From Paenibacillus xylanilyticus (GTDB lineage Bacteria; Bacillota; Bacilli; Paenibacillales; Paenibacillaceae): a stretch of 64,000 nt of DNA. Where the stretch lies: positions 4,901,001 through 4,965,000 of the forward strand of contig NZ_CP044310.1 in assembly GCF_009664365.1 (NCBI RefSeq), given 5' to 3'. Below, one piece after another: positions 28,501 through 54,073 of the stretch. Made by a program: the position numbers and the translations under genes. The first letter of the stretch is position 1. Each line of letters starts with the position of its first letter. The notes under the pieces are model-generated. The model worked only from the letters and a program-made list of their open reading frames with translations, made no database searches and was not told where the DNA came from.

Positions 28501-30894
28501 TTAATTATTTACTAGCTCTCTCTTAACATTGAATTGTAGAGTGTTTTTACCGTACTTTTGAAATTTATATCTAATATATCGAGATATATGATCTTCATGA
28601 GTAGAAAGTATTATTTGTTTGTCAGGGAACTCATTCCTTAATAATTCCGTTAACGAAGCCATATTCAATTCATCCATTGTTTGCACAGGATCATCAATAA
28701 GAATTAAGCCAAGTCCTTTATTACCGTAAATTTTATTCAGTGCTAGAGTAAAAGAAATTACAAGTGAAGATACTTGACCAGAACTAAAATAATTAATTGC
28801 GTCATGTTCACTCATGTCATCTGACACAAATTTAATATTTTTTGCCTCACCTGATTCAGCCTCTTTTATGAAGACTCCTAAACCTTTTTGATAATATTGA
28901 ATAATTTTCCCACTATAAATATAAAAAGGGATTTCTATATCTTTCATTATGCGATTCCAATGTTGCTTTATTCCTTTATCGTATTCATCAATGATATCAG
29001 ATAGATTATTATTTTTATCTTCTAAGGCAGAACTTTTTCTCTCTAAAGAAGAAATATTAATTTCTATTTTTTTCAATTCATTAGTATTCCCTGTAAAATA
29101 TATGTGTTCAATATAATTTATTTTTTCCTGAACTTGTTCTTGAGTTACCAGTCTTACTCTCTCAGGAGATTCTGAGAAATTTTCTTTGTAAATGCTAAGG
29201 AATTCATTAAATTTACTACCACCTGCATCATATATTTCATCAATGTGAATTCTTTCAAATGATATCATTTGAATTACATGATCGGTACGTGTAACCAAAT
29301 CTTCAGGTATCTCGCGCTCTTTTTGGAAATATTTATTTACATCAATTCTTTTACTTTGACACCATTCAACAAATTTAGTAATTCTATTTTTAATTTTATT
29401 CGCATTCGATATCTCTTCAAAGAACTTGTTATCGATTCTATGAGTAGGATTCTGTAAGTAATCATTTACGTAGTTAATTATTTTTTGAAAGAAATTCTCA
29501 TAAAGTTGCTTAGTTGTTTCTTCAACTCGCTTTGTAGAAACATCATAAAATTTAGAGAAATCTGCTTTTTTATCCTCAATAGCCCTTATTAGAATGTCCT
29601 GTTCTTCCCAATTTTGCCCACATAAAGGACAGATGCTATCTATTATGTGTGTGTGGCTTTGAGTTAACTTTACAAATTTCTCTATAAGTTGATTACGTGA
29701 GTCATTTAATTCTTTAATTAAAGTAGATAAATTTCCGGCAATTTTCTGATCAGTAGTTATCTGAATGATTAGAGTATTTATTTCACCAAAATAATTGTCT
29801 ATTGGGAAGTTAACCTCTTTTAAAATATCAAAATTTAATAAGGACGGATTCTTTAGAAATGTTTCTGGTGAGAGCTTTAACAGAAGTTCATTCAGTTTTT
29901 CTTCAGTTTGCTTAATAGCCTTAATTTCTTCAAACTCATTGATGTGTAATCCCGTCAAAATAGCTGACCTAATTATAGAGTTATTATCACTAGAAACGGC
30001 AAAATCAATTTGCGAATTGTGTTTGGCGTTTAGGAAATCTTGAAACATAGTTATAAACTCATACATTAACCGTAACTCTTTCAAGATTATATCGCGGGAT
30101 TCTCTCGTGTTAATTATTGGTAATTCAATATCCCACGGTTTAGGGATTTCAAGATGAGGTAATAGCGGATGAAACGCTGTATATCTCACACTGTCTTTGT
30201 CGAAAGTTTGTAACTCATTTATCAAATAATTATATCTGTTTCTCGCTTCTGTTAAACTCTTGGAAACTTTAGTTGAAACTTGTCTTAACTTTGATTTCAA
30301 TTTAATCAAGCTTCGCTTCGTATCTTCTTCTTGTTTCGTGTCAAACAGTTGCCCTACCTCTTCCATCCTCTCCTTTGATTTTCTTTTTAAAAAATGAGTA
30401 TTTTCTTCTTGCTGAATATAATAGAACAGATTATAGAATCGAGGTAAATCAGTTGTATTAAAAAGTTCTGATATTCTGTCTTGATTAATTTCTTCGTACT
30501 CCTCTTCGGGAGAGTCAAAAGATGATAGTAGAAATGTTTCAAACTTAAAAAAGTCCTCAGTACGAAATCTATGTAGTTTATTGTTAGCTTTCAATCGTTT
30601 AAGTAATGTAAATTGTTTTTCATTTGAACCAAATTCTATTTTAATGATGCAATCACGTTTTGTATTTTTCCTGAGCAAATCGACTCCAAATGTTGACCTT
30701 CCGTCATCAGATCGAATACGCTGAATTGTTCCTGTAAGCATTAATTCTATTGCATCAAAAAGGGTTGTTTTACCAAAACCATTGGGTCCATCTAGCATGA
30801 TAAGATTGTAATCCTGTAAATCGATTTCAAGATTGAAATTGTCAATTAGTTTAAAATTTTGAATTGATATTTTCTTGAGAAACAAATCATTCAT
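28501..30894 (-). CDS. SMC/Rad50-like ABC ATPase of an ABC-3C/Lamassu-type conflict system
   Basis: This is a predicted DNA-end or DNA-structure sensing ATPase. The 797-residue protein has a Walker A motif at residues 36-43 (GPNGFGKT), a long coiled-coil middle with a Rad50-like hook CPLCGQNW (Cys422 and Cys425), an ABC signature region FSSGQVSSLVISFTLAL and Walker B LILIDDPVQTMDE (Asp734-Asp735), with the D-loop and H-motif STHEDH at the end. The ATG at 30892-30894 follows GGGGGAAG. It overlaps the preceding gene by 8 bases, so all three genes are coupled. In ABC-3C and Lamassu systems this component (LmuB-like) detects invader DNA and releases the effector; that role is inferred. Strikingly AT-rich. 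Confidence 0.85.
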   Translation of the reverse strand: MNDLFLKKISIQNFKLIDNFNLEIDLQDYNLIMLDGPNGFGKTTLFDAIELMLTGTIQRIRSDDGRSTFGVDLLRKNTKRDCIIKIEFGSNEKQFTLLKRLKANNKLHRFRTEDFFKFETFLLSSFDSPEEEYEEINQDRISELFNTTDLPRFYNLFYYIQQEENTHFLKRKSKERMEEVGQLFDTKQEEDTKRSLIKLKSKLRQVSTKVSKSLTEARNRYNYLINELQTFDKDSVRYTAFHPLLPHLEIPKPWDIELPIINTRESRDIILKELRLMYEFITMFQDFLNAKHNSQIDFAVSSDNNSIIRSAILTGLHINEFEEIKAIKQTEEKLNELLLKLSPETFLKNPSLLNFDILKEVNFPIDNYFGEINTLIIQITTDQKIAGNLSTLIKELNDSRNQLIEKFVKLTQSHTHIIDSICPLCGQNWEEQDILIRAIEDKKADFSKFYDVSTKRVEETTKQLYENFFQKIINYVNDYLQNPTHRIDNKFFEEISNANKIKNRITKFVEWCQSKRIDVNKYFQKEREIPEDLVTRTDHVIQMISFERIHIDEIYDAGGSKFNEFLSIYKENFSESPERVRLVTQEQVQEKINYIEHIYFTGNTNELKKIEINISSLERKSSALEDKNNNLSDIIDEYDKGIKQHWNRIMKDIEIPFYIYSGKIIQYYQKGLGVFIKEAESGEAKNIKFVSDDMSEHDAINYFSSGQVSSLVISFTLALNKIYGNKGLGLILIDDPVQTMDELNMASLTELLRNEFPDKQIILSTHEDHISRYIRYKFQKYGKNTLQFNVKRELVNN

Positions 30895-31600
30895 TATTAA
30901 CTTCCCCCAACCATTCATTTAACAATTCATTTTCTTCTTCATCATTACAATTTTCAAGTTTTCCAATTAGATTTAGAGCGCTGTTTCTGACAGAATACAG
31001 TTCTAACTGTTTCAAACGATTGTCGATCCTCATTGATAAATTATCCAATTCCTCTTCTTCTCCTCGATACTGTAAGAACGGCAGTTTAATAAAAAGTCGT
31101 GTTGTTAAATGAAAAGCAGTTGATTCCACTGGGTGCTTTTTGAAATCATAGAACTTCTCTTTATCATTAAGTAAACTATACAAACCTTTAGTAATTCCTT
31201 TTGCTCTATGATGCTCATTAAACTCCTGCAGTTCTGCGTCCGCATATGGTAAAACTAATTTTCTAAAATGATAAGGATCTTCTTCCACTTCAAATATACT
31301 CCTGTTAAGCTTCTCATTATAAGTAAAAGCAGCTCTTTTTAAACAGATAATCAGAGTGGAATTTTTATCCATTCTTCTGTCATAACCAGTAGGTAGTCGC
31401 TTTAGCTCCACAAAGTATTGATTCATTAATTCATTCAGATTTTCAAAATTCACATCTTCATTTTCAAATAATACTAGGAAAAATCCTAACTTTGATGAAT
31501 CTAATTTAACAGCCATAAATCCGGACTTTTCTTCTAAAAATTCTGGTTCAACTACATTGAATTTATGTTCAATGAATAAATCCTTCAAAAAATGTATCAT
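30887..31600 (-). CDS. Middle component of the ABC-3C/Lamassu-type system
   Basis: This is a 237-residue protein with no recognised catalytic motif. It begins MIHFLKDLFIEHKFNVVEPE and includes RLPTGYDRRMDKNSTLIICL and a C-terminal helical region rich in Glu and Asn. Its place is what identifies it: it sits between the effector and the SMC-like ATPase genes, starting within the effector stop codon (TAATG, one base shared) and overlapping the ATPase gene by 8 bases. The middle subunit (MC, LmuC-like) of these systems bridges ATPase and effector. Sequence alone gives only modest support, so the family call rests largely on context. Confidence 0.7.
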   Translation of the reverse strand: MIHFLKDLFIEHKFNVVEPEFLEEKSGFMAVKLDSSKLGFFLVLFENEDVNFENLNELMNQYFVELKRLPTGYDRRMDKNSTLIICLKRAAFTYNEKLNRSIFEVEEDPYHFRKLVLPYADAELQEFNEHHRAKGITKGLYSLLNDKEKFYDFKKHPVESTAFHLTTRLFIKLPFLQYRGEEEELDNLSMRIDNRLKQLELYSVRNSALNLIGKLENCNDEEENELLNEWLGEVNNE

Positions 31601-32979
31601 TACTCAAGCTCCTTTCTTGCTTGAGGGAAGTTAATCATTCTTATCCGTTTTATTTTCATAAATTTATCATCCTCTGATTCGTTATCACTCTCGAGTTCTT
31701 CATTTGAGATATGAGTATATTTATATGCTGCTTCTTCTAAAGATTGCATTGGTATATGTGAGGAAATCATTACATCTATCTCATGCAAATCTTCAATATC
31801 TGAGTTCATCATTATATCTTTAGCTATTCGGCTAACTTGTTTTTCATCTAGCAACTCATCATCGATTAATGATGTAGGCCTTTCATGCAACGTAGTAGGC
31901 AAATATACTAAATTTAGGCCGTTCTCATCTTTTCTCAAAAAAACCGACTGATCATTATGGAGCGGCTCTCTAAAAACATAGAGTGCTTTAAGTAAAGGGT
32001 CCCGTATTCCTTGAAATGGAATAAGACCATGAAAGGTTCTAAGATTTATTTCGCTCGCTTGAACATGAGGTGTCCATTTTTTACATAACTTTAAAAATGC
32101 ATTATCATCTACTGATCTTACATCATCATAAAATGTCTTAACTCTTTGAAAAGCAATAGAGCTAGCTTCATTTTGATTATCATATAAAAATTGTTCACAA
32201 ACAGAACAGTATAACTCTCGTAAGACATATGTATAATATTGTTTACTAGATTCCTCAAAATTACAATTTAGAGCTTCATAAATGTCACTAAATGGAATTC
32301 TTCTATTGTCCTTGGTAACTTTACCTTCTTGCAAAAATTTATGCCTTTCAGAAACATGGTTATCAAGTATAGAAAGCAAAAAATAATAAAGACGATTATA
32401 ATGTTCTTCGCTTCTAGATATCCCCCTCTCCTTATAATATCTGGATAATTGAAAAATAATTCGATTTTTAATTTCTGTAAGATTACAATGATTTAAATCT
32501 TGATCATATGTAAACAAATCAAATTTTTCAAAAACTGATTCATAAAGATCATTGTCTATAACATATTGATAATACTCATTTGGATTCAATTGATTTTCAG
32601 AACCAGTTGCTGTAGGGGCAGTGAGGTTTTTGTATCTTTCTCTTAGAGTTGTTTTATCAGGAAGTTTCTCAGTAGTATGCAAATAAGCTTTGTCGATATG
32701 AGATTTTATTGCAAGTTTACCTAAAAGAGTCCATACAGCATCTTTATATTCGCTTGGGGCAGTAGAATTAAAAGTTTTAACTTGATGTATTGATACTTCC
32801 TTATCATTATAAATTACTGTAAAATCCTCTAAGTGCTCTAATTCCAATTCGAATTTTTTTACATTTTCATTTACTAAACTTTTGTCATTTATTATTTTTA
32901 GCACAGTGTAAATAGCCGTTTTACCTTGATAAGAGTAACCATTCCAACTATTTGTTGCATCATGATTTAGAGACTTCAT
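31600..32979 (-). CDS. Probable nuclease effector of the ABC-3C/Lamassu-type system (Cap4/DUF4297-like N-terminus)
   Basis: This is the first gene of the island, encoding 459 residues. The N-terminus SWNGYSYQGKTAIYTVLKII, followed by ELELEHLEDF and VSIHQVKTF, has the layout of a PD-(D/E)xK nuclease of the Cap4/DUF4297 type. Glu48, Asp52 and Gln66-x-Lys68 are the candidate active-site residues. The rest of the chain is a helical domain with a charged Glu/Ser-rich end (NEELESDNESEDDKF), presumably the part that binds the other two components. AAGGATGATAAACT precedes the ATG. Low GC content fits horizontal transfer. The effector activity has not been seen, only inferred from motif spacing and gene order. 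Confidence 0.72.
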   Translation of the reverse strand: MKSLNHDATNSWNGYSYQGKTAIYTVLKIINDKSLVNENVKKFELELEHLEDFTVIYNDKEVSIHQVKTFNSTAPSEYKDAVWTLLGKLAIKSHIDKAYLHTTEKLPDKTTLRERYKNLTAPTATGSENQLNPNEYYQYVIDNDLYESVFEKFDLFTYDQDLNHCNLTEIKNRIIFQLSRYYKERGISRSEEHYNRLYYFLLSILDNHVSERHKFLQEGKVTKDNRRIPFSDIYEALNCNFEESSKQYYTYVLRELYCSVCEQFLYDNQNEASSIAFQRVKTFYDDVRSVDDNAFLKLCKKWTPHVQASEINLRTFHGLIPFQGIRDPLLKALYVFREPLHNDQSVFLRKDENGLNLVYLPTTLHERPTSLIDDELLDEKQVSRIAKDIMMNSDIEDLHEIDVMISSHIPMQSLEEAAYKYTHISNEELESDNESEDDKFMKIKRIRMINFPQARKELE

Positions 32980-46830: not shown

Positions 46831-47202
46831 TTAAGGATTAACACCCGTCTGTAACACTTGGAAATATATTCGCAAAAGCTTATCAAAATCAGGAGTCTCT
46901 TCCTGAATCTGCTCTATATACTTCCACAAGATCAATTCTTCCGTTTCGATGTTAATGACCTCGTATTCCATTTGTCCGGACTCCCATACGGTTACTTGGC
47001 CCATGGCACACTCTGATTCATGAACAACCCCGGTCGAGGGATCTGGAATATATTGTTCATTCACACGTCCATGGTTCACCGGTTCGGTAGTAATATGAAG
47101 TGTTCGCAGCGGGCCTGCCTTCAGTTCGGCCCATTGTACGAATTTCTTTTGAAGCAACGTGATATGCACCTCCCTAACGACTCGCACGTCCAAGTTTCTC
47201 AT
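46831..47202 (-). CDS. Hypothetical protein
   Basis: No family was recognised. The 123-residue soluble protein is mostly beta-strand-like in its first two thirds (RVVREVHITLLQKKFVQWAE; MGQVTVWESGQMEYEVINIE), with a helical C-terminus (KYIEQIQEETPDFDKLLRIY). The chosen ATG at 47200-47202 (MRNLDVRVV) has AAAGGA four bases upstream; an earlier ATG at 47220 lacks one. It lies between the phosphorylase and the GAF/PucR regulator, on the same strand as both, with no clear link. The shape is reminiscent of small immunity-type proteins, but this is speculation. Confidence 0.6.
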   Translation of the reverse strand: MRNLDVRVVREVHITLLQKKFVQWAELKAGPLRTLHITTEPVNHGRVNEQYIPDPSTGVVHESECAMGQVTVWESGQMEYEVINIETEELILWKYIEQIQEETPDFDKLLRIYFQVLQTGVNP

Positions 47203-47321
47203 GATTTCCTTTCTAATCATTATACTTCACCTATGCACACAAAAAACGACCCTCAGCCAGAGAGTCGGTTGCCATGGTATTTAATTCAGTGAATGTGTGG
47301 TTCTGCCTTTTATGTGTTCGA

Positions 47322-49424
47322 TCAAGATGAGCGGTATGTCTGCCGCAGATAACAGGCCAGCTGCAGATGAAGCAGGTGCTCCTGGTTACTCAAGGACATG
47401 CCCAGAATCTCTTCAATTTTGCGAATCCGCTGATACAGTGTATTGATATGAATATGAAGCGTGGCTGCCGTCTGAGCAGCAGATCCTCCGGAAGCCATAT
47501 ATGTCATTAGCGTTTCCTCCAATCCGCCGGTCTGCCCTTTGGCAGGTCGCAGGGGCTCAAAGATCTCTGCCATAAACGTATTCAGATCCTCCGCAGATTG
47601 CCGGATGAACAAACGGTTGACACCAATATCCGTATAGCGAATGGTTCCCCGTTCTCCCCTTGTCTTCTGATACGCCAGTGCCTTATCGCCCTCCTGGAAT
47701 CCCGTATTAATCGCATCCACGCCTGATCGGATTGAACTTAAACCTCCGAATAATTTCACCTGATTTCGACTCTCCCAGTCCTTCACCAGGGAGCTGAACT
47801 GCTGCTCCAGCTTACCAGGTTTAACCCCATCAGTCACGATCAGCAGCAAGGTAATTCGCCTCTCATCCCCAAACGCAACAGGCAGCGTTCCGCTTGGCAT
47901 TTTCTCTCTCAGATAAGCAATGAGCTGAACGGATAAAGGACTATAGGTGGATGGGTTCAGCCTATCCGCAAACTCCAAAAGACCCACTATGATGGATGTT
48001 GAAGGACCGATCCCGATCTCCCCTGACTTCTGCCAGTAATCCTCCGAGTCCTGACTAAGTCTCAGTTCATTGAAGAATTGCTGTGTTTTCTTGAAGTAAA
48101 ATTCAGCCAGAGACTGCTTGCGCATCAGTTCAAGAGCCAGAATGGAGCTTCCCTGCTCCAGCGCAATTAACTGCAATGGTTCCAGCGGAGTATTCATCTG
48201 CATAATCAGATAACCGAGACATTGATTAGCCGAAGCAATCGGGTACAAATATTGAAATACCTGGCTATCGTCGCCCTTGATACATGTCAGATAATCAGGA
48301 TGATGTAAGGATTCGTACAGATTGCGCAGCTTCTCCATATCCCAATCATTCAGGACACTGCTCCGTTTGGGAATCCATTCATTATCAATAAAATCGATAA
48401 ATACGATGGGCACGCCAATGATACGTGTCAATTCGTTAACGATGGATACCGCACCTTTATTTTGGAGGGACAGCCGCATTAAGGATGAGTGAATCTCGTC
48501 TCGTTTGATGAGTGTTTCGTTCCGTTTGCTTAGATCCTCATAGAGCTGGGCATTCGTGATGGCAATGGAAACCTGGTCGGCAAAGCTCTGCAGGAGTCGT
48601 ACATCCGATTCCGTAAATATGGGGACCCTTCCTTTTTGATAAACGATTAACACGCAATCCGGCTCTCCTCCCACCTTGATCGGCACCGAAATGATGGACC
48701 CGATATTCTGAAAGTCGTATGCCGAATTCAAATGAGACTTGTTGTCAGGAGTCATGTTTCCAAAATCATCTTCCACTGTGGAGAAACTGTTGTAAAGCTT
48801 GGGAGTGCCTCGCTTGAACGTACTGCCAATGATGCCTTCACCCGGCTTCAGCTTCATTTTCAGCATGCCCTCGCCCATTTCGCCAGCTCTTGCCTTAACC
48901 TTCAGTGCATCAATTGCAGGATCGTATCTCCATAACACTCCGATACATTCATAAGGTATAACCGATAGAGCACTCACCAAAATCCGGCTCAACAGCTCAT
49001 TCAGATCTAACAGCTGAGTCACATCACGGATACTGTTCATGATTTCGTTCAAGGCACGTTCATGCTTGATTGCCACAGCCTCCGTATAATACGGGTAGAG
49101 TAATGAGGATAGCGTAACTAAATCTTCCGCAGAACAGTGCCAGTTCTTAAAAACACGAATTGCCACGCATATATTATTGCTATATGGCAGAAAAACTAAC
49201 ACCATTTCATCTAATTCTTGCTCTACTTTGGGGTGTTGAAGAGGGAGACTTTCATCAAAACAAGGTGGTATACTTTCCTTTTTGCCAATGGCTTCATTCA
49301 GCACCCAATCTTCCCAATTACTGCTGATCCAAACCTCATAATCGCATTTCCCCAACCGTTCTCTCAGGATTTCATGTAAGATTCCATTCAACAGAGCCAC
49401 CCCCAAGTCAATGTAGGTTTTCAC
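47322..49424 (-). CDS. GAF and PucR-type helix-turn-helix regulator
   Basis: This is a 700-residue transcription factor. The N-terminal 130 residues are unassigned. A GAF sensor domain lies at about 140-310 (DLNELLSRILVSALSVIPYE; GEGIIGSTFKRGTPKLYNSF; ISVPIKVGGEPDCVLIVYQK). A second sensor-like region and a CdaR/PucR-like middle domain follow. A C-terminal PucR HTH (LMTYMASGGSAAQTAATLHI, HINTLYQRIRKIEEILGMSL) ends the chain. The annotated start is GTG without a ribosome binding site; a TTG at 49389-49391 behind GGGGGTGG is an alternative. It is divergent from the MFS/M20/serine dehydratase operon and probably activates it. Confidence 0.86.
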   Translation of the reverse strand: MKTYIDLGVALLNGILHEILRERLGKCDYEVWISSNWEDWVLNEAIGKKESIPPCFDESLPLQHPKVEQELDEMVLVFLPYSNNICVAIRVFKNWHCSAEDLVTLSSLLYPYYTEAVAIKHERALNEIMNSIRDVTQLLDLNELLSRILVSALSVIPYECIGVLWRYDPAIDALKVKARAGEMGEGMLKMKLKPGEGIIGSTFKRGTPKLYNSFSTVEDDFGNMTPDNKSHLNSAYDFQNIGSIISVPIKVGGEPDCVLIVYQKGRVPIFTESDVRLLQSFADQVSIAITNAQLYEDLSKRNETLIKRDEIHSSLMRLSLQNKGAVSIVNELTRIIGVPIVFIDFIDNEWIPKRSSVLNDWDMEKLRNLYESLHHPDYLTCIKGDDSQVFQYLYPIASANQCLGYLIMQMNTPLEPLQLIALEQGSSILALELMRKQSLAEFYFKKTQQFFNELRLSQDSEDYWQKSGEIGIGPSTSIIVGLLEFADRLNPSTYSPLSVQLIAYLREKMPSGTLPVAFGDERRITLLLIVTDGVKPGKLEQQFSSLVKDWESRNQVKLFGGLSSIRSGVDAINTGFQEGDKALAYQKTRGERGTIRYTDIGVNRLFIRQSAEDLNTFMAEIFEPLRPAKGQTGGLEETLMTYMASGGSAAQTAATLHIHINTLYQRIRKIEEILGMSLSNQEHLLHLQLACYLRQTYRSS

Positions 49425-49458
49425 ATAAAACTACAATTTATTATACATATATATACAT

Positions 49459-49499
49459 TGTGTTGGTACCCCCTCATCCTGTAACTTTATATCAACACA
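49459..49499. promoter_or_regulatory. Candidate operator in the divergent promoter region
   Basis: TGTGTTG (49459-49465) and CAACACA (49493-49499) are perfect inverted repeats 27 bases apart, within the 114-base gap between the regulator and the MFS gene. Spacing of about three helical turns would suit a looping or dimeric activator. Confidence 0.35.
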
Positions 49500-49538
49500 G
49501 AAATCAAGTTAACAATCGATGAGAAAGAAGGTAACACA

Positions 49539-50777
49539 ATGTCCAAAATCATGCAAAGCAAACACTTCAAGTACATTGTTCTCGCTCTCTTGTTTCTCGG
49601 CTGGTGCCTAGGCAACCTCGACCGCTTCGTCATCAACTATGCCATTGTAGGAATAACTGAGGATCTGGGTCTGGGCGCTTCCGCGCAAGGAATCATTCTC
49701 AGCAGCTTTTTCCTCGGGTATGCCATTATGCAAATCCCGGGCGGAGCACTCGCCGACCGTTTTGGCTACCGTAAGGTCATTCTTGTTTCCTTGTTCTCCT
49801 GGTCCATATTCACCATTCTGACCGGGTCTGCCTGGTCATTACTCTCTCTTATCTTCGTTCGTTTCCTGTTTGGTATTGGTGAAGGCAGCTTCTTCCCTTC
49901 CGGTTCCAAAGCTATCGCCACCAACTTCCCGGTCAATCAGCGAAGTGGAGCCATGTCGATCATGCTGGCATCCGCTGCAATTATGGGGGTTGTCACTCCT
50001 ATTTTGACTGGACATGCCCTTGTGACCATTGGCTGGCGCAACCTGTTTTACATCATCGGTGCGGCGGGCATCCTCATCACGGCGCTCATGTTCTTTTTAT
50101 TAAAAGAACCTGCGAAATCGGCGCTTACTTCCACTGCTTCAGGCCAGCAACCGAAAACATCACTTAAAGACGTTCTGAAAACGCCTATGATCTGGAACTT
50201 GTTCATCAGCTACTTCAGCATCTATGCCGTCAACTGGGGACTCCAATCCTGGATGCCAACGTACATGGTCAATGTCCGGGGACTGGATATGACGGAAATG
50301 GGACTGCTTGCAGCCATCCCGGCCGTCGTCAGCATTTTCACCATGCTCCTCAGTGGCTATGTGCTTGACCGTATCCCGGCTGGCAAAGATCGGATTATCG
50401 CTTCCGTATTCGGTGTACTGGTTGCCTTCTTCCTGTACCTCATGGGCTCCTCGGGAAGCATTGCCACATTTATTACGTACATGACAATCGTAACGGCCAT
50501 GGCTGGATTTATTTCCACGCTGATCATTTCAAAATCACTAAAAACCATGCCCGAATCTGTAGTCGCAACGGCCAATGGATTCATCAACACAGGTGCACAG
50601 CTCGCCGGTTTCCTGACACCGATGCTGATCGGATTTCTGGTAGAGGCTTCAGGAGGATCTTATGCAACGGCCTTCATCATGTTGATCGCCTTCGCTCTCA
50701 TTTGCTCCCTTTCGTTATTCTTCTCGCGTCGTTCGAAACAAGACAGTGGTTCTGAAGTGCAGGCAACAGCCGTTTAA
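49539..50777 (+). CDS. MFS transporter, anion:cation symporter (ACS) type
   Basis: This is a 412-residue transporter with about twelve membrane segments. It has the ACS-family pattern LGWCLGNLDRFVINYAI in segment 1, GGALADRFGYRKVILVSLFS after segment 2, and FLFGIGEGSFFPSGSKAIA at segment 4. This family imports organic anions such as hexuronates, glucarate and peptide-like acids. AGAAAGAAGG precedes the ATG. It is the first gene of the operon followed by an M20 hydrolase and serine dehydratase, so it probably imports the amide conjugate that the hydrolase cleaves. Confidence 0.88.
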   Translation: MSKIMQSKHFKYIVLALLFLGWCLGNLDRFVINYAIVGITEDLGLGASAQGIILSSFFLGYAIMQIPGGALADRFGYRKVILVSLFSWSIFTILTGSAWSLLSLIFVRFLFGIGEGSFFPSGSKAIATNFPVNQRSGAMSIMLASAAIMGVVTPILTGHALVTIGWRNLFYIIGAAGILITALMFFLLKEPAKSALTSTASGQQPKTSLKDVLKTPMIWNLFISYFSIYAVNWGLQSWMPTYMVNVRGLDMTEMGLLAAIPAVVSIFTMLLSGYVLDRIPAGKDRIIASVFGVLVAFFLYLMGSSGSIATFITYMTIVTAMAGFISTLIISKSLKTMPESVVATANGFINTGAQLAGFLTPMLIGFLVEASGGSYATAFIMLIAFALICSLSLFFSRRSKQDSGSEVQATAV

Positions 50778-50876
50778 TGACGCAGCAGCTTAGTATCCTT
50801 TTTTCAATAAAAATCATGCCGTAACAAACAAGCCATTTCGTACTCATCATAAAACACATGTAAAGAGGTGTATTCC

Positions 50877-52319
50877 ATGACAACAACGATTGATCTAACC
50901 CAATATATATCCGATGCCATTGAAGGAAAACGCGAGGTATTCACCCAAGCCAGTGACCGAATCTGGGAATTTGCAGAGACAAGGTTCGATGAATTTCAAT
51001 CCGCAGAGCTGCTGATCGAATTGCTTGAATCGGAAGGCTTCACGATCGAGAAAGGTGTTGCCGGACTGGAGACCGGTTTCATCGCTTCCTATGGTTCGGG
51101 GCTGCCGGTCATTGCCTTACTGGGCGAATATGACGCACTGGCTGATCTCAGCCAGGAAGCAGGCATCAGCACATACCAGCCCGTTCAGCCGCGTGGTAAC
51201 GGTCATGGATGCGGACATAACCTGCTTGGCATAGGCGCTGTGGCTGCGGCAGTCGCAGTCAAAGACTATCTTCAAGAGCATCCGGAAACCCAAGGAACGG
51301 TGCGTTTCTATGGATGCCCGGCGGAGGAAAGCGGATATGGTAAAACGTATCTTGCTCGCGAGGGCTATTTCAAAGACGTAGATGCTGCGCTCTCCTGGCA
51401 CCCCCACTCCATGAATGCAGTAATGCATGGAAGCTCCAATGCAGTCATTCACGGCACCTTTACTTTTAAAGGCATTAGTGCTCATGCTGCTGCCGCTCCC
51501 CACCTGGGTCGAAGCGCTCTCGATGCCGTTGAGCTGATGAATATCGGTTCCAATTATATGCGGGAGCACATGATTGATCAGGCCCGGATTCACTACGCCA
51601 TTACCAACTCGGGCGGTTTGGCACCCAATGTCGTGCAGGCGGAAGCCGAGGTCACTTATCTCGTCCGAGCACCGAAGAGCGCTCAGGTACGGAGTCTGTT
51701 TGATCGTCTGGTGAAGGTCGCTGAAGGGGCCGCCCTGATGACGGAAACCACGATGGATTTTAAATATGAAGGCGCATGCGCCAACCTGATTCCGAACAGC
51801 ACGCTTGAGAAAGTGATGCATCAGCATCTTGTGGCTTTCGGCGCACCTGAATATGCAGAGGACGAATACGATTATGCCAAAGCCATCTATGAGACGCTGC
51901 CGTTCCAAAATCAGCAGGAAGCTGGCGCGTTAGTTGGTCCTGAACTCGCCCCTCTTCTGGCCGAGCGACCGCTGCCGAACTTTATTGCTCCGTATTCAGA
52001 CGAGAAGGAGACCTTCATGGGTGGATCAACCGATGTTGCCGATGTCAGCTGGAATGTGCCGACCGCGCAGTGTATTACAACCACGATGGCCTTTGGCACA
52101 CCGCTTCATGCTTGGCAAACCGTTGCCCAAGGCAAGAGCAGTTTTGCTCACAAGGGCATGCTGCTCGCCGCCAAAGCGATGGCAGCTACGGCCATTGAAT
52201 CCATTCTGCATCCAGAGATCGTCAAGGAAGCACAGCAGGAGTTGCTGGACAGACTCGGCGGGGAAGTGTACGACTGCCTTGTTCCCGCAGATGTACAGCC
52301 TCCCAAACGGGGAGAATGA
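50877..52319 (+). CDS. M20-family metallo-amidohydrolase (AbgB-like)
   Basis: This is a zinc- or manganese-dependent amide hydrolase. The 480-residue protein shows LLGEYDALADLSQEAG, the metal motif GNGHGCGHNLLG (residues 108-119), YGCPAEESGYGKTYLAREGY with the catalytic Glu, and the lid-domain HGTFTFKGISAHAAAAPHLG. These match the AbgB/aminobenzoyl-glutamate hydrolase subgroup, with no AbgA partner present. The ATG at 50877 has AGAGGTG upstream. The following sdaAB gene begins four bases after its stop. Coupling to L-serine dehydratase suggests the amide released is a serine conjugate, which differs from the textbook substrate. Confidence 0.88.
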   Translation: MTTTIDLTQYISDAIEGKREVFTQASDRIWEFAETRFDEFQSAELLIELLESEGFTIEKGVAGLETGFIASYGSGLPVIALLGEYDALADLSQEAGISTYQPVQPRGNGHGCGHNLLGIGAVAAAVAVKDYLQEHPETQGTVRFYGCPAEESGYGKTYLAREGYFKDVDAALSWHPHSMNAVMHGSSNAVIHGTFTFKGISAHAAAAPHLGRSALDAVELMNIGSNYMREHMIDQARIHYAITNSGGLAPNVVQAEAEVTYLVRAPKSAQVRSLFDRLVKVAEGAALMTETTMDFKYEGACANLIPNSTLEKVMHQHLVAFGAPEYAEDEYDYAKAIYETLPFQNQQEAGALVGPELAPLLAERPLPNFIAPYSDEKETFMGGSTDVADVSWNVPTAQCITTTMAFGTPLHAWQTVAQGKSSFAHKGMLLAAKAMAATAIESILHPEIVKEAQQELLDRLGGEVYDCLVPADVQPPKRGE

Positions 52320-52323
52320 GACA

Positions 52324-52992
52324 GTGAGGTTCAAAGACGTATTTTCCATTATCGGTCCAGCCATGGTTGGACCGTCAAGTTCCCACACTGCAGGAGCAGC
52401 AAGGATAGGACGCACGGCTCGCCAACTGTTCGGCGAATGCCCTTCCCATGCGGAAATCATCATGTTTGGCTCTTTTGCCGCAACATATAAAGGACATGGT
52501 ACCGACACCGCCATCGTTGGCGGGCTGCTGGATATGGACACGGATGATCCCGGACTGCCCGAGGCTTTTGCCCATGCAGACATGGCAGGCATGCAAACTG
52601 TCATCCGTCCGGGAACAGGTCTGTATCCGCATCCGAACACGACAGAGATTGTACTGACCAACGCAGCGGGAACTCGGACATTAAACATGATCGGTACGTC
52701 AATCGGCGGAGGGAATATCGAGATTGTCCGGATTAACGGCTACAACTTGAAGCTGACGGCTCTCTATCCTACACTCATCATTCGTCATAGCGATGAACCC
52801 GGTGTCATTGCTGTCGTCACTCGCCTGCTTGTAGATAATCACATCAATATTGGACACATGTCTGTGGATCGTAAGAACCGGCGGGGTGAAGCCATGATGG
52901 TGCTTGAATGTGATGGCCGGATTGACCACGCCGTGGTGCGGCAGATTGAAGTGATTCCGGAAGTCCAGGAAGTCACGCTGCTCCACCTTTAA
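52324..52992 (+). CDS. sdaAB: L-serine dehydratase, iron-sulfur-dependent, beta subunit
   Basis: This is the small subunit of the [4Fe-4S] enzyme that converts L-serine to pyruvate and ammonia. The 222-residue protein begins VRFKDVFSIIGPAMVGPSSS, with HTAGAARIGRTARQLFGECP directly after, and has GHGTDTAIVGGLLDMDTDDP. A C-terminal ACT domain (ALYPTLIIRHSDEPGVIAVV) begins near residue 147. The start is GTG at 52324, behind GGGGAGAATGAGACA, four bases after the M20 gene. A longer open frame upstream lies wholly inside the M20 gene in another frame and is not used. The alpha-subunit gene follows after 50 bases. Confidence 0.95.
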   Translation: MRFKDVFSIIGPAMVGPSSSHTAGAARIGRTARQLFGECPSHAEIIMFGSFAATYKGHGTDTAIVGGLLDMDTDDPGLPEAFAHADMAGMQTVIRPGTGLYPHPNTTEIVLTNAAGTRTLNMIGTSIGGGNIEIVRINGYNLKLTALYPTLIIRHSDEPGVIAVVTRLLVDNHINIGHMSVDRKNRRGEAMMVLECDGRIDHAVVRQIEVIPEVQEVTLLHL

Positions 52993-53042
52993 TTTGAATA
53001 TTGGAACTATTTACCGCTTAATCGATAAAGGAGCCTACGCCA

Positions 53043-53918
53043 ATGAACTTTCGAACGCTAAAACAACTTGCCGAACTGGCGGAGACCCGCAATCTTTCCC
53101 TCGGCCAGCTCATGCTGGAAGAGCAATGTCATGAATCAGGCGAAGACACGGGTACCGTGTTCGGCCAGATGCAAGAGTATTATGAGATTATGAAAAGTGC
53201 GGTGCATCAAGGTCTTCACACCGATACCACTTCCAAAAGCGGCTTAACGGGAGGAGACGCCCGTAAATTGATGGCTTTTCGTGCAGATGGACAGTCCATG
53301 CTCGGTGACCATGCCAGTCTGTCGATGAGTTACGCACTTGCAGTATCCGAGGTCAATGCCTCGATGGGTCGAATTATTGCTACACCGACGGCGGGTTCCT
53401 GCGGTATTATTCCCGGGGTATTTATCAGCAGTCAGGAGCGATTCGGCTGGACCGATGAACAGATGGTCTACGGCCTGTTCGCCTCCGGGGCAATCGGTTA
53501 CGTCATTGCCAACAATTCGTTCATCTCTGGTGCGGAAGGCGGATGTCAAGCGGAAGTGGGGTCAGCCATCGGGATGGCAGCTGGAGCGCTGGTGGATATC
53601 CGGGGCGGGTCTCCTTCCCAGGCCATCCACGCCGTTGGGCTTGCGCTGAAGAATACCCTTGGTCTGATCTGTGATCCGGTAGCGGGGCTTGTCGAGATTC
53701 CATGCATCGTACGGAACGGGTTTGGTGCCATTACTGCTCTCGGAGCCGCCGATATGGCGCTGGCCGGAGTCCGCAGTGTTATCCCTTCCGATGAGGTGGT
53801 ACAGGTCATGCTTGAGGTTGGATCGGCCATGCCTGAATCATTACGCGAAACAGCAGGCGGCGGCCTCGCCCAGACCCCGACAGGGCGCAAGATCACACGG
53901 GATTTGCAGCATAAATAA
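53043..53918 (+). CDS. sdaAA: L-serine dehydratase, iron-sulfur-dependent, alpha subunit
   Basis: This is the catalytic large subunit. The 291-residue protein has the serine dehydratase alpha motifs TPTAGSCGIIPGVFISSQER, GGCQAEVGSAIGMAAG and LGLICDPVAGLVEIPCIVRN, whose cysteines bind the [4Fe-4S] cluster. The chain ends in GGGLAQTPTGRKITRDLQ. AAAGGAG lies about ten bases before the ATG. It is the last gene of the operon and ends at a strong terminator. Placement of the sda pair behind a transporter and an amide hydrolase points to serine as the nutrient drawn from the imported compound. Confidence 0.95.
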   Translation: MNFRTLKQLAELAETRNLSLGQLMLEEQCHESGEDTGTVFGQMQEYYEIMKSAVHQGLHTDTTSKSGLTGGDARKLMAFRADGQSMLGDHASLSMSYALAVSEVNASMGRIIATPTAGSCGIIPGVFISSQERFGWTDEQMVYGLFASGAIGYVIANNSFISGAEGGCQAEVGSAIGMAAGALVDIRGGSPSQAIHAVGLALKNTLGLICDPVAGLVEIPCIVRNGFGAITALGAADMALAGVRSVIPSDEVVQVMLEVGSAMPESLRETAGGGLAQTPTGRKITRDLQHK

Positions 53919-53922
53919 AGAT

Positions 53923-53984
53923 CAGGCATGTCATTTACACTCAGAGAGACGGTCAGAACGCCTCTCAAGGTAAATGCATGCCTG
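53923..53984 (+). terminator. Rho-independent terminator of the serine dehydratase operon
   Basis: CAGGCATG...CATTTAC pairs with GTAAATG...CATGCCTG in a long stem with an internal GAGAG/CTCTC hairpin, followed by a run of seven or more T bases. Confidence 0.88.
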
Positions 53985-54073
53985 TTTTTTTGTTTGACGT
54001 GATGATGTATTTCAACCATTGAACCGCTCGTACATTCTTCAGATAAGTTCAGTTAAACTAAAGGGGGCTACAG

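Follow-up and report, generated by a model that had tools for sequence, protein, structure and literature searches.

An operon for a transporter, an M20 hydrolase and a serine dehydratase in Paenibacillus xylanilyticus, a probable route for the catabolism of N-substituted L-serine, and its sister operons with other partner enzymes

Plants, insects and microbes produce conjugates of amino acids such as serine, glutamine and aspartate as signals and stores. AbgB-like M20 hydrolases are widespread, mostly annotated just as "amidohydrolase", with substrates that are largely unknown. The abgABT system of Escherichia coli combines import with an M20 amidohydrolase of the AbgB-like family; AbgA and AbgB are reported to form a heterotetramer that works with the transporter AbgT, and to have been inactive on the various dipeptides tried (PMC5082436). 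The N-alpha-acylglutamine aminoacylase of Corynebacterium striatum (N-AGA or CsAga, PDB 6slf) has an M20D fold and frees the amino acid from N-acyl conjugates; it is reported to accept only Gln as the amino acid, to tolerate many different acyl groups and to have an unknown uptake protein (PMC7209930). HmrA of Staphylococcus aureus and PM20D2, the human beta-alanyl-lysine dipeptidase, are M20 proteins described as peptidases. We know of no comparable operon context for either of these two. Here we analyze an operon within a 64,000-nucleotide stretch (the window) of the complete 6.45-Mb genome of Paenibacillus xylanilyticus. In contrast to abgABT it combines an M20 gene with a major facilitator superfamily (MFS) transporter and a serine dehydratase, and unlike the Gln-specific CsAga its hydrolase is encoded alongside a transporter and a deaminase. 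It probably encodes the inducible breakdown of an N-substituted L-serine and is one of a group of MFS-M20 operons whose partner enzyme would correspond to the amino acid released. A search of open-licence PubMed Central (PMC) literature found no MFS-M20-serine dehydratase or MFS-M20-glutaminase operon.

Open reading frames (ORFs) and profile searches place five genes at the locus: a regulator on the minus strand (47322..49424) and, divergent from it on the plus strand, genes for the MFS transporter (49539..50777), the M20 hydrolase (50877..52319) and the two subunits of L-serine ammonia-lyase, sdaAB (52324..52992) and sdaAA (53043..53918). All five, with their positions, order and strands, agree with a first-pass annotation made from the letters alone. 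The gap between the MFS and M20 genes is about 90-100 nt, the M20 stop codon lies 4 nt from the sdaAB start, and the sdaAB-sdaAA junction measures 50 nt. Beyond sdaAA a terminator-like hairpin with a T run (53923..53991, plus strand) folds at -31.9 kcal/mol in the interval 53918-54000 (z -5.1 against 200 shuffles); it is missing from a separate scan, whose loops are limited to 3-8. Because of the 4- and 50-nt junctions and this hairpin, MFS-M20-sdaAB-sdaAA is likely to form a single transcription unit, as the annotation had proposed.

The transporter (412 aa, anion:cation symporter-like) matches MFS_1 with 224.6 bits. Its best subfamily is TIGR00893, which the earlier label of "ACS-type" (anion:cation symporter) anticipated, at 222.9 bits under a cut-off of 395, so the label is fair but not formal. 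The protein presumably imports the conjugate. The hydrolase, called AbgB-like from the start, exceeds the TIGR01891 cut-off of 153.75 with 300 bits; its ORF opens at a GTG at 50868, and the ATG at 50877, which yields 480 aa, is the likelier start. Eight residues, Glu-84, His-110, Cys-112, His-114, Glu-150, Glu-151, His-175 and His-411, are invariant in the M20 alignment (49 rows, one sequence twice), and by comparison with M20 enzymes in general they would have roles of the metal-site type. The metal residues listed for AbgB are Glu-81, His-111, Glu-146 and His-171 (PMC5082436), and by residue numbers alone Glu-84, His-114, Glu-150 and His-175 of the window protein have a similar spacing. A structure model of the hydrolase (predicted local distance difference test score, pLDDT, 93.7) has its closest solved folds in HmrA (Z 44.5, 385 residues, 29% identity) and PM20D2 (Z 41.6). 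CsAga aligns at Z 32.4 over 375 residues with 17% identity, and is by analogy the closest functional precedent, with a strict head group and a loose acyl part.

The two sda products exceed the equivalog cut-offs of the two-chain iron-sulfur L-serine ammonia-lyase. The beta subunit, with its ACT domain, scores 207.2 against 161.2 for TIGR00719; the ORF list gives it as an over-long TTG ORF from 51934, and the likely start is the GTG at 52324. The alpha subunit (291 aa) scores 338.2 against 243.2 for TIGR00718, and its cysteines 168, 210 and 221, which we take to serve the iron-sulfur cluster, are kept in all 34 rows of the alignment. A second sdaAA, 70% identical to the operon copy, is present in the same genome. 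The operon thus carries the same two-chain enzyme as housekeeping SdaAA/SdaAB as an extra copy, tied to an M20 gene. Among the 15 further genomes with the operon, only one (G085) has a single sdaAA. Neobacillus niacini has in the same place a fused sdaAA-sdaAB gene (520 aa; TIGR00718, 356 bits; TIGR00719, 197 bits) and two more sdaAA genes elsewhere in its genome.

Some M20 match occurs in 270 of 295 genomes of the family, and the full gene order, counted over fetched neighbourhoods, in 12. With two loci from a gene-order search (G788 and G752), one from Paenibacillus sp. NFR01 and that of N. niacini, 16 loci were available; the Paenibacillus loci L085 and L090 are relatives of the window locus. 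In a tblastn search the M20 gene, sdaAB and sdaAA occur together in 16 of 16, the sda genes being fused in Neobacillus, and the survey of gene order suggested by the first-pass annotation found the order conserved. Since the set recurs in 16 fetched loci, in many of which the flanking genes vary on one or both sides, it is more than a chance arrangement. Identity to the window hydrolase ranges from 99% down to 62% across these loci, and the association is therefore old. No further gene is common to the neighbourhoods of the serine loci, so the extended operons give no hint of the acyl part.

The histories of the two components differ. In the sdaAA tree (16 rows against 28), placing the operon copies in one clade costs 43 log-likelihood units and is rejected by the approximately unbiased (AU) test (p-AU 0.00156); the cost is still 35 units (p-AU 0.0018; 15 rows against 20) when Neobacillus and distant rows are left out. 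In the M20 tree the 16 serine-operon hydrolases need one change among the labelled rows, with unlabelled rows lying inside the group, and have a support of 99 in the Shimodaira-Hasegawa-like approximate likelihood ratio test (SH-aLRT). The operon sda genes are thus of mixed origin, whereas the M20 proteins encoded beside them form a group, which suggests that a single hydrolase lineage acquired serine dehydratase on more than one occasion, keeping or regaining copies of different descent. Such a pattern is what would be expected on one M20 lineage if its product were serine.

Other partner enzymes occur in related MFS-M20 operons. Thirteen loci have an MFS-M20 pair with a glutaminase gene downstream (NF009021, 568 bits against a cut-off of 470), and in seven of them (L201, L204-L208 and L210) the M20 and glutaminase ORFs overlap, judged by ORF ends as called with unrefined starts. 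Three more (L256, L259 and L260) run regulator / MFS, aspartate ammonia-lyase, M20, EamA transporter; the aspartase of L256, the locus scanned, scores 763 against 681 for TIGR00839, and L259 and L260 continue with a malic-enzyme-like gene. We note that the EamA and malic-enzyme-like genes could provide an exit for the acid part and a use for fumarate. At L229 and L230 a MarR gene comes after the M20 gene, together with a gene for a beta-eliminating lyase of the threonine-aldolase type.

For a count of these associations, M20 matches of 38% identity or less, or of 250 aa or less, were dropped, and 9 duplicates among 199 and then 7 rows below 45% identity were removed, leaving 183 M20 rows. A partner was scored as linked within a same-strand run with gaps of up to 250 nt, so that L106, with a glutaminase gene 794 nt away, is counted as partner-less. 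Among the 67 MFS-linked rows, 33 are accompanied by one of the four partner enzymes, or 34 when L059, overlooked by the ORF calling, is included; the same is true of none of the 116 rows without an MFS gene, made up of 38 AbgT/AbgA-linked, 27 oligopeptide-ABC-linked and 51 other rows (Fisher p 6e-18, relatedness ignored). The M20 tree omits 66 of the 183 rows, which are short or, where no MFS gene is linked, fall under about 50-52% identity; in it each partner type has its own M20 branch, and for serine dehydratase, glutaminase, aspartase and the threonine-aldolase-like enzyme a single change apiece suffices among the rows that carry a label. Nine check loci share their partner with the nearest M20, a weak check as six of the nine are at least 95% identical to a known locus; at one of the nine, L293, the transporter is unlike that of the nearest M20.

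Between serine-type and glutamine-type M20 proteins, 27 columns are fixed differently. Position 154 lies within a few residues of the conserved pair Glu-150 and Glu-151; all 16 serine-type rows have Tyr there, all 14 glutamine-type rows Ser and all three aspartate-type rows Gly. Val-190 and His-192 are each present in all 16 serine-type rows; in the glutamine type, position 190 is Asn in all 14 rows and position 192 is either Ser or Ala. We regard Tyr-154, Val-190 and His-192 as leads, candidates for head-group recognition, since kinship alone also fixes columns. We would give even chances to a more far-reaching proposal, namely that MFS-M20 operons are modular scavengers of conjugates in which the partner labels the released amino acid (serine dehydratase for Ser, glutaminase for Gln, aspartase for Asp), that the window holds an undescribed N-acyl-L-serine pathway, and that a handful of positions, these three among them, determine head-group specificity. 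If the partner does reveal the released amino acid, a head group could be assigned from sequence to dozens of M20 proteins, and conjugates of serine, glutamine and aspartate would be real nutrients of soil bacteria.

Several observations weigh against this reading of the operon and its sisters. Of the MFS-linked rows, 34 of 67 (33 without L059) lack all four partners; the partner is therefore optional, and we do not take these loci as counter-examples to a hydrolase role. The M20 proteins of L065, L069, L195 and L196 fall within the serine-type branch or beside it and belong to regulator-MFS-M20 operons that have no linked sda genes, so the dehydratase is not obligatory. The nearest M20 neighbours include some linked to oligopeptide-type ABC transporters, such as the 61% identical paralogue at L064, and on that account peptides are favoured as much as acyl-amino acids. 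The threonine-aldolase-like partner is the weakest case, with two close loci and a MarR gene in between. As separate observations, the paralogue L064 (G000:C1:3893000-3908000 in the window genome) follows an oligopeptide-type ABC transporter operon, with similar arrangements at L067, L197 and L242, and a presumed regulator of about 433 aa (REG4; L071, L077 and others) adjoins both glutaminase-type and AbgT-type operons; the copy scanned, at L071, has no NCBIfam match at 1e-10 and no Pfam match at 1e-5.

On balance we consider the catabolism of an N-substituted L-serine the probable function of the window operon. What is observed comprises the genes present, their order and spacing, the conservation of the unit, the repeated recruitment of sda genes and a partner that changes with the M20 branch; from these we infer import, hydrolysis, serine as the product and induction. 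The regulator would sense the conjugate or a product of it and control the divergent promoter, the MFS protein would bring the conjugate anion into the cell, and the M20 enzyme would split the amide bond, releasing L-serine together with a carboxylic acid. From the serine the dedicated iron-sulfur dehydratase would make pyruvate and ammonia, a gain of carbon and nitrogen for the cell. The serine-releasing substrate favoured by the first-pass annotation is strengthened by the repeated recruitment and by the exchange of sda for glutaminase or aspartase; the serine amide as such we infer from the gene context.

The substrate might instead be an Xaa-Ser dipeptide, with the M20 protein acting as a carboxydipeptidase and the operon salvaging serine from a special class of peptides, a possibility to which we give a lesser but real weight. 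It fits the closest solved structures, HmrA and PM20D2, and the oligopeptide-type ABC transporters that accompany neighbouring M20 branches, and a title cited in PMC11511702 describes M20D enzymes of the HmrA type as carboxydipeptidases that prefer Met-X. The transporter here, however, resembles the MFS carriers of organic anions and is neither an ABC nor a POT transporter of peptides; for this reason we lean to an acyl-serine over a dipeptide. Many X-Ser peptides would in any case already be cut by common peptidases, and the reported inactivity of E. coli AbgAB on a range of dipeptides (PMC5082436) points the same way.

That the operon detoxifies a serine-containing antibiotic or phytotoxin, serine catabolism being incidental, is very unlikely. 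An N-acyl-amino acid amidohydrolase is reported to degrade ochratoxin A (PMC6784128), and the spread of the operon, 12 of 295 family genomes, is patchy; but a dedicated deaminase, together with the glutaminase and aspartase sisters, suggests carbon and nitrogen use, and no gene for resistance or efflux accompanies the serine operon. The sequence offers nothing in favour of the toxin route that the first-pass annotation had given as an option. Least credible of all is an AbgB-type p-aminobenzoyl-glutamate hydrolase with bystander sda genes: the enzyme belongs to the same broad M20 family, is of similar length and matches TIGR01891, but neither AbgA nor AbgT was found in the operon, the only PF03806 (AbgT) match of the genome (G000:C1:4851529) adjoins another M20 gene whose product is a 25% match to the window protein, M20 proteins linked to AbgT or AbgA are encoded at other loci and for the most part branch elsewhere in the M20 tree, and sda genes were seemingly recruited repeatedly to this M20 lineage. 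We therefore rejected p-aminobenzoyl-glutamate as the substrate for want of AbgA and AbgT in the operon, in line with the preference of the earlier annotation, and bystander sda genes on the repeated recruitment and the partner association.

The divergent regulator (700 aa) consists of an N-terminal region, a GAF domain (residues 140-289; GAF_2, 41.8 bits), a middle region and a CdaR/PucR-like C-terminal part with HTH_30 at 636-692 (71.8 bits against a cut-off of 27). Its structure model has a pLDDT of 81.6, and residues 130-298 resemble solved GAF structures (Z 17). The description "GAF/PucR" given to it earlier thus stands for the GAF domain and the PucR-type helix-turn-helix; the Pfam N-terminal PucR domain is not among its profile matches. 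The intergenic region that it shares with the MFS gene (49425..49538) has conserved blocks in an alignment of nine loci and is a presumed promoter-operator. A promoter scan returned 7 promoter-like sites where chance alone would produce 7.9, and we therefore claim no promoter.

Two further features of the window lie at lower coordinates than this locus. Between the regulator gene and a purine nucleoside phosphorylase gene, the minus strand encodes a 129-aa protein (46831-47220) matching the immunity family TriTu with 35 bits against a cut-off of 27. An AT-rich island on the same strand (28501-32979, GC content about 0.30-0.35) contains three genes that match Lamassu-type or ABC-3C defence systems, namely LmuA/CTD1, LmuC/MComp1 and an LmuB/SMC-like ATPase.

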